Origin: a virus
Direction: 5' to 3' (one strand)
Length of the DNA stretch: 23,872 nucleotides
IMG/VR virus record: IMGVR_UViG_3300047361_000043
Location: 1 to 23,872 of that record
The translations under genes and the position numbers were made by a program. Positions 1,010 to 1,906 of the stretch are shown piece after piece (positions within the stretch are counted from its first letter, which is position 1; the number at the start of each line of letters is the position of its first letter). The notes beneath the pieces were generated by a model, which saw nothing but the letters and a program-made list of their open reading frames with translations, had not been told where the DNA came from and ran no database searches.

Positions 1010-1037
1010 ATTATAGCAGACGTATTTCAGTTGTCAG
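1010..1037 (-). promoter_or_regulatory. Promoter before the 53-aa gene / hli unit
   Basis: The minus strand reads CTGACA (1032-1037), a 16-base spacer and a perfect TATAAT (1010-1015). It overlaps the last codons of the upstream hli gene, a placement repeated elsewhere in this window. Confidence 0.65.
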
Positions 1038-1252
1038 AATCCGAAGACACCAAAGAAAAATACACTGCCACTGAAAGTATAAGAGACAACAGCAGCAACA
1101 AATCCAACCATAGCAGTGCGTCCATTCAACTTCTCGGCTCTTTCAGCATATGACTCGTAGCCATAACGTTCGGCGTCAGTTTTAGAGACGTACATTTGAG
1201 GCTCTCTAGCGAACAAATTTGTGCGTCCGCCGTCTTCTGTTGTTACAGTCAT
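1034..1252 (-). CDS. hli: High-light-inducible protein with N-terminal extension (72 aa)
   Basis: The C-terminal 36 residues carry the Hli signature (ERAEKLNGRTAMVGFVAAV) in one membrane helix, ending in an aromatic tail. The first 36 residues are polar, with a TDAERYGYESYAERAEK region, as in the longer cyanobacterial Hli proteins. It should bind pigment in the thylakoid and protect photosystem II under phage infection. The ATG at 1252 follows an AGAAGG ribosome-binding site. A promoter embedded in a terminator lies just upstream (1279-1317). It has no coding overlap with the next gene, so it forms its own unit with possible read-through into the 53-aa gene. Confidence 0.93.
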   Translation of the reverse strand: MTVTTEDGGRTNLFAREPQMYVSKTDAERYGYESYAERAEKLNGRTAMVGFVAAVVSYTFSGSVFFFGVFGF

Positions 1253-1278: not shown

Positions 1279-1307
1279 AGTATATAGCAAAAAAAGGAGG
1301 GTGTCAA
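1279..1307 (-). promoter_or_regulatory. Promoter of the long hli gene, embedded in a terminator
   Basis: The minus strand reads TTGACA (1302-1307), 17 bases, then TATACT (1279-1284). The -35 is exactly the terminator loop, and the spacer contains the 3' arm and the T-run of that terminator. Confidence 0.75.
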
Positions 1308-1317
1308 GCCCTCCTTT
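1289..1317 (-). terminator. Rho-independent terminator after the 112-aa membrane gene
   Basis: A perfect 9-bp stem (AAAGGAGGG at 1309-1317 pairing with 1293-1301) has a 7-base loop and runs into seven T residues on the minus strand. It lies 6 bases past the stop of the gene ending at 1323 and shares its sequence with the hli promoter. Confidence 0.85.
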
Positions 1318-1322
1318 GATAA

Positions 1323-1661
1323 TTATTCCTGATCAGTCGGATCAGGTTTACTTGCTTTACTCGCTCCCCAGATTGCCAGAATGAAGAGCACCACATAAAA
1401 GAGGGTGTCGTCAATCATTACCAGGAAGAATAGGACACTACCACCATATGTCAACCAGTCAGGTAGTCTCTTGGTAAGTCTACCAATCACAGGTCTAACT
1501 TTATTCTCATACTTGAAGTAGAGAATAGCGCCTAGAGTTACTGTAATCTCACTCATCGGAACGATGAAGTAGAGAGATACAATAACAAAGATAGGCCAGT
1601 AGTGTCTCTCTGGAATCTTTTTAAGTAATCCCAAATACTTTTTAATCATACGAACTACCAT
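1323..1661 (-). CDS. Multi-pass membrane protein of unknown function (112 aa)
   Basis: Three hydrophobic segments are visible: about residues 22-50 (WPIFVIVSLYFIVPMSEITV and onward), 70-82 (LTYGGSVLFFLVM) and 86-99 (LFYVVLFILAIWG). They are separated by short basic stretches and followed by a polar tail. No motif identifies it. Size and topology would fit a small holin-like or other inner-membrane protein, but nothing proves this and no lysin lies beside it. Its start overlaps the preceding small gene by 20 bases, and a strong terminator follows. An internal TTGACA-like match was judged accidental. Confidence 0.7.
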   Translation of the reverse strand: MVVRMIKKYLGLLKKIPERHYWPIFVIVSLYFIVPMSEITVTLGAILYFKYENKVRPVIGRLTKRLPDWLTYGGSVLFFLVMIDDTLFYVVLFILAIWGASKASKPDPTDQE

Positions 1662-1845: not shown

Positions 1846-1872
1846 AAAAAAAGGGGATGCCGTCGCACCCCC
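1846..1872 (-). terminator. Terminator after the exported barrel-like gene
   Basis: On the minus strand an 8-bp stem (1865-1872 with 1853-1860, one G-U pair) with a GACG tetraloop runs into seven T residues. The next gene's ATG follows the last T directly. Confidence 0.85.
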
Positions 1873-1906
1873 AGTATAACATCTAGATGTCTATGTGTCT
1901 ACAAGA

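Follow-up and report, generated by a model that had tools for sequence, protein, structure and literature searches.

Genomic context of the element

The window, by which we mean the whole stretch of 23,872 nucleotides analysed here, is an IMG/VR contig (23.9 kb) of a virus of marine cyanobacteria. Its closest named relative is the Synechococcus phage S-CAM1, with 85% identity over the 78% of the window that is covered. The record taxonomy gives the family as Kyanoviridae, and the relationship with S-CAM1 puts it among the T4-type phages. RNA features in the window comprise a psbA leader RNA, a wcaG RNA, a cyanobacterial-type tmRNA and tRNAs. The wcaG RNA (2575-2481, minus strand) is followed downstream by a consensus promoter (2437-2409) and by a cyanophage outer-membrane-like gene (2278-1907).

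The 39-base element lies between two genes on the minus strand, one of unassigned function and hli, which encodes a high-light-inducible protein. The locus comprises:

1323 to 1661, minus strand: 112-aa gene of PHROG 1248, function not assigned, upstream of the hairpin
1293 to 1317, minus strand: predicted intrinsic-terminator hairpin with a 9-bp stem, AAAGGAGGG/CCCTCCTTT, and the loop CTTGACA
1302 to 1307, minus strand: -35 box TTGACA, entirely within the hairpin loop
1285 to 1301, minus strand: 17-base spacer CCCTCCTTTTTTTGCTA, comprising the 3' stem arm, the T-run and GCTA
1289 to 1295, minus strand: T-run of seven T's, the first three of which are also paired in the stem
1279 to 1284, minus strand: -10 box TATACT, 17 bases after TTGACA
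1034 to 1252, minus strand: hli, high-light-inducible protein of 72 aa (PHROG 178, E 2e-30), downstream of the element

A second short hli-like gene, a 35-aa ORF at 504-611 on the minus strand, matches the C-terminal half of PHROG 178 only. The TGA stop codon of hli itself falls inside a CTGACA -35-like box (1037-1010, minus strand), which is followed by a 16-base spacer and TATAAT ahead of the next gene.

A predicted terminator hairpin and a predicted promoter occupy the same bases

Read on the minus strand from 1317 to 1279, the element has the sequence AAAGGAGGGCTTGACACCCTCCTTTTTTTGCTATATACT, which divides into AAAGGAGGG CTTGACA CCCTCCTTT TTTTGCTA TATACT. Positions 1317-1309 pair with 1301-1293 and, because the loop is CTTGACA, the whole -35 hexamer is unpaired. 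The sequence-only reading had described TTGACA as the loop of a terminator whose 3' arm and T-run form the 17-base spacer to TATACT, leaving the strand unstated. On the minus strand this description is exact, the spacer running from 1301 to 1285 and including GCTA. Together, the -35 and -10 boxes match the sigma-70 consensus at 11 of 12 positions, and the predicted promoter's spacing of 17 falls within the sigma-70-type range of 16-18.

The 5' arm of the hairpin begins 5 bases past the stop codon of the 112-aa ORF (1661-1323). The hairpin has a minimum free energy of -13.5 kcal/mol (z = -3.0), and only 3 of 200 shuffles folded equally well. The features of an intrinsic terminator, a GC-rich hairpin and a U-tract, are both present, and the RNA 3' end of the upstream transcript is expected at or just past the T-run. 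A plus-strand terminator call at the same place was set aside, as the ORFs read as genes on the basis of families or relatives are on the minus strand. The predicted +1 at about 1272 gives a 20-nt leader ahead of the hli ATG at 1252. The sequence between the -10 box and the start codon, ATGTAAAG..(C)ATTAC (1278-1253, minus strand), is conserved in many hli homologues.

The promoter is the constant part upstream of hli

Promoter matches of at least 10/12 are found in all 56 distinct regions upstream of hli homologues, with TTGAC in 55 and a 17-base spacer in 54 of them. The -35 box lies in a hairpin loop in 15 of these 56 regions and a separate upstream terminator is present in nine; neither was detected in the remaining 32. 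Since the boxes and their spacing, TTGACA-N16-18-TATAAT, persist across hli homologues whether the hairpin is present or absent, the promoter is the constant part of the arrangement. Where the hairpin is present, the TATATAAT/TATATACT core at the -10 box is kept in 42 of 42 distinct hli elements.

These data bear on the possibility that the element is a terminator only, its -35 and -10 matches being due to chance and hli being expressed from elsewhere. Consistent with this, a terminator loop could hold any sequence, and promoter consensus matches are common in AT-rich DNA (39 found against 24 expected in 12 kb). However, the same boxes with the same 17-bp spacing recur in hli homologues that have no hairpin, and in those that have one, the loop keeps TTGAC as the stems change and the TATATAAT core is kept throughout the 42 elements. 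We therefore regard a terminator without a promoter as highly improbable.

In 20 of the 32 hairpin-less hli regions (loci L014, L022 and L047 are examples), an upstream frame of at least 40 codons ends at the TGA within TTGACA, against only 1-2 of 32 for either of the other two frames. The hli -35 box is thus often shared with the end of the preceding unit, be it a stop codon or a terminator. At PHROG 1248-hli junctions the element is present in 11 of 11 distinct loci, ten of them scored automatically and one by eye. It is absent at PHROG 1248 genes where another gene comes next, which rules out that it is a property of the upstream gene.

Stem sequences change in matched pairs

The stems of orthologous elements differ and still pair: GGAGGG/CCCTCC in the window corresponds to GAGGGGC/GCCCCTC in S-CAM1 and to AAAGAGGG/CCCTCTTT in S-CAM3. 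Both orthologues are syntenic with the window, and their stem changes are compensated. To look beyond these, we scanned the collection with a pattern that fixed one stem pair only and that returned at least 120 stretches. Across the 81 distinct IMG/VR sequences among the matches listed, 81.8% of stem cells are paired, compared with 54.1% in shuffles, and 195 stem cells are changed on both sides, compared with 71. The covariation score of these 81 sequences is 0.70, against 0.21 in shuffles and at most 0.28 when the register is slid. Related phages thus appear to keep the arrangement while the letters of the stem change in matched pairs.

With the same pattern, a stem of at least 6 is formed in 61 of the 92 viral matches listed (5.8 in the re-paired control) and in 8 of the 119 cellular (bacterial and archaeal) matches listed. 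A general bacterial feature was rejected on these counts: the pattern is present in bacterial genomes, and the hairpin is rarely formed there.

The way in which the stem closes around the hexamer also varies. Among 104 distinct superposed elements, 77 close as C-TTGACA-G and 19 as C-TTGAC-G, which makes the -35 box TTGACG, and eight leave CTTGACA unpaired; since these elements were selected for pairing, only their variety, and not their pairing percentage, counts as evidence. The closure of the window's own element is of the fully unpaired kind, in which the full consensus -35 is retained and one base pair is lost. TTGACC-loop hairpins that have no -10 box are found in relatives at loci L089, L137, L143, L135, L154 and L145, where they sit between an apparent tmRNA end and an apparent tRNA gene.

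Could the element be only a promoter, with the hairpin an accident of a GC-rich stretch? Conservation is indeed strongest in the boxes, and the hairpin is missing from many hli homologues. An accidental hairpin is, however, difficult to reconcile with stem covariation in a single register, with compensated changes between orthologues, with chance counts near zero (see below), or with a T-run and a placement relative to the stop codon that are typical of a normal terminator. We give this explanation very little credence.

Superposition occurs in two fixed registers

In 1.85 Mb of related loci we find 34 distinct elements that combine the loop, the T-run and the -10 box, whereas dinucleotide shuffles gave 0-2 and the reversed sequence gave 0. 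A stricter second scan yielded 33 elements against 0, 0 and 0 in shuffles. The shuffles, the reversed control and the cellular DNA together rule out chance coincidence.

To define the position of promoters relative to terminators, we compared promoters with 280 distinct terminators on the same strand in 160 cyanophage loci (about 1.8 Mb), which were collected by protein similarity, are anchored on hli and PHROG 1248, and include the window's own stretch as L001. The -35 box is centred on the loop (offset 0) at 33 of the 280 terminators and lies about 36 bases upstream of the loop centre at 26, with only one promoter between the two peaks; given this anchoring and the relatedness of many loci, these counts are not independent events. 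Neither offset occurred in three shuffles or, motif hits excluded, in 256 bacterial terminators.

At offset -36, the -10 box lies directly against the 5' arm. This places the +1 at the tip of the hairpin, and the ATG follows the T-run almost directly. The window holds one element per register, that at 1317-1279 before hli and a second before a 67-aa gene:

1846 to 1901, minus strand: second superposed element, in the -36 register, with TAGACA-17-TATACT abutting the hairpin GGGGGTGCgacgGCATCCCC and T7

The ATG of the 67-aa gene comes directly after this element, with no clear ribosome-binding site, and the +1 is predicted at the hairpin tip. The second element is conserved in S-CAM1 and in other loci. 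In both of the window's elements, the RNA started at the promoter would lack the 5' arm entirely or for the most part and should therefore escape the terminator; RNA arriving from upstream should not escape it in either element.

Distribution among phage genomes and genes

Cyanophage genomes that were not anchored on particular genes carry about 1-5 superposed elements per 24-36 terminators, with 0-3 of the loop type and 1-2 of the second type in each. S-CAM1 has two elements per register among 29 terminators, and S-SM2 has three in the loop register and two in the second, also among 29. Bellamy has one convincing loop-register element and two in the second register among 36 terminators. In Syn9, one convincing second-register case was found among 24 terminators, and no convincing loop-type element in the whole genome. 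A variant before the gp43 gene cluster of S-SM2 and Bellamy places TTGACG or TTGACA beside an inner helix. The loop register also occurs before a PHROG 431 gene, a thioredoxin-like gene, thymidylate synthase, dCMP deaminase, an epimerase and others. In complete genomes, the loop form is denser in one Enterococcus phage and one Lactococcus phage than in Kyanoviridae, being found at 6 of 15 terminators in Enterococcus phage IME-EF1 and at 3 of 6 in Lactococcus phage 66901.

Promoter-early stem-loops (PeSLs), reportedly composite promoter-terminator cassettes of T4-like phages, have been published (Arbiol et al. 2010, doi 10.1093/gbe/evq006; Comeau et al. 2014, doi 10.1093/gbe/evu129). The element could mark the boundary of a recombination module, as a PeSL-type mobile cassette for swapping the genes upstream of hli, an explanation that is compatible with compact punctuation and adds to it. 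In its favour, the element and hli remain together while the upstream neighbours of hairpin-bearing hli genes vary (PHROG 1248, the outer-membrane-like protein, a 323-326-aa gene and small ORFs), and the element precedes many unrelated genes. Against it stand the few copies per cyanophage genome, which share little stem sequence and therefore offer only short homology for recombination. Moreover, the study of phage S-PM2, which discusses PeSLs, considers PeSL-mediated shuffling unlikely there (PMC4503421). On balance, we think a role as a recombination boundary unlikely.

A probable superposed terminator-promoter at the operon boundary

We propose that the 39 bases are very probably a terminator and a promoter superposed on each other, which together act as compact punctuation between the PHROG 1248 operon and the hli operon. 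The anatomy of the element, its conservation, the covariation in one register, the enrichment over chance and the association with hli are all directly observed. Polymerase arriving from upstream would transcribe both arms, and the GC-rich RNA hairpin followed by U's would bring about termination. A host sigma-70-type (SigA) holoenzyme would read the same duplex as TTGACA and TATACT at 17-bp spacing, and transcription of hli would start about 20 bases ahead of its ATG. As this RNA would begin downstream of the hairpin, the hairpin would never stop it. Such sharing can work because the terminator loop is free in sequence and can hold a -35 box, and because the promoter spacer is equally free and can hold a 3' arm and a T-run.

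The sequence-only reading had also held that a single element ends transcription from upstream and initiates that of hli. This gains comparative support on the promoter side and on the stem side; termination, initiation and the position of the +1 are predicted from sequence. In a P-HM2 expression paper, hli is labelled as one of the phage genes followed.

A further possibility, compatible with compact punctuation and additional to it, is that the element is a regulatory device, in which a terminating polymerase occludes the hli promoter, or a promoter-bound polymerase road-blocks read-through (the sequence-only reading had raised the latter), so that the two processes are coupled. A complex whose RNA ended at 1285-1290 would, from the geometry, extend over the -35 box to about +1, and interference in both directions is therefore plausible. 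The two registers are also fixed rather than scattered. Nevertheless, the same promoter serves many hli homologues that have a separate terminator or no hairpin, so coupling is not required for hli. We consider a regulatory device doubtful, and infer that the superposition was selected mainly for compaction and not for regulation. In our view it is quite improbable, though conceivable, that phages of unrelated hosts repeatedly fixed exact registers, with the -35 box in the loop and in cyanophages also the +1 at the loop, because the releasing polymerase is caught by the promoter and reinitiates, handing over from one operon to the next.

The superposed terminator-promoter illustrates how the boundary between operons can shrink to about 40 bases in lytic phages. 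Annotation tools that handle promoters and terminators separately would miss the rule of only two registers. Should termination and initiation prove to be coupled, the element would offer a natural system in which to test polymerase recycling in vivo, as well as a compact insulated part for gene circuits.

Comparison with known systems

That a terminator and a promoter can be paired is already known in principle. We found no description of the exact superposition with the -35 box inside the loop, the covariation or the two-register rule in the literature searched, which is a weak test, as subscription papers lay mostly outside it.

The overall arrangement is reminiscent of PeSLs. Both pair an intergenic stem-loop resembling an intrinsic terminator with what appears to be a strong promoter of the sigma-70-like kind, between small accessory genes of a T4-type phage, and the window element contains a stem-loop with the terminator features expected of a PeSL. 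However, there is a clear difference in layout. Whereas in phage RB49 terminators are commonly followed by a promoter and the two stand side by side, the distance from the loop centre to the downstream -35 box being about 29-30 bp (up to 45), the window element has it at offset 0, inside the loop, as against +29 to +45. RB49 also carries about a dozen terminator-promoter cassettes, whereas cyanophages have few. As both layout and copy number differ, we do not accept a plain PeSL identity. No convincing loop-register element was found in the RB49 genome. RB49 (AY343333) does have many copies of promoters in which a hairpin serves as the 17-base spacer (TTGACAGGGGATCGGTGATCCCCTATAAT), for example at 43031-43003 and 121736-121708.

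When compared with ordinary intrinsic terminators, the element shares the GC-rich hairpin followed by a T-run, directly past a stop codon. Ordinary terminator loops vary freely, whereas here the loop contains a conserved hexamer, and a -10 box follows 17 bases later.

Finally, polymerase that has terminated can remain on the DNA and, in vitro, start again at promoters close by (PMC6978380). The window element resembles the situation in that work in having a promoter at the site of RNA release. Those in vitro experiments relied on E. coli polymerase and on terminators and promoters that were separate, whereas the window element is known from its sequence. On geometric grounds, a coupling of termination to initiation at the window element is possible.
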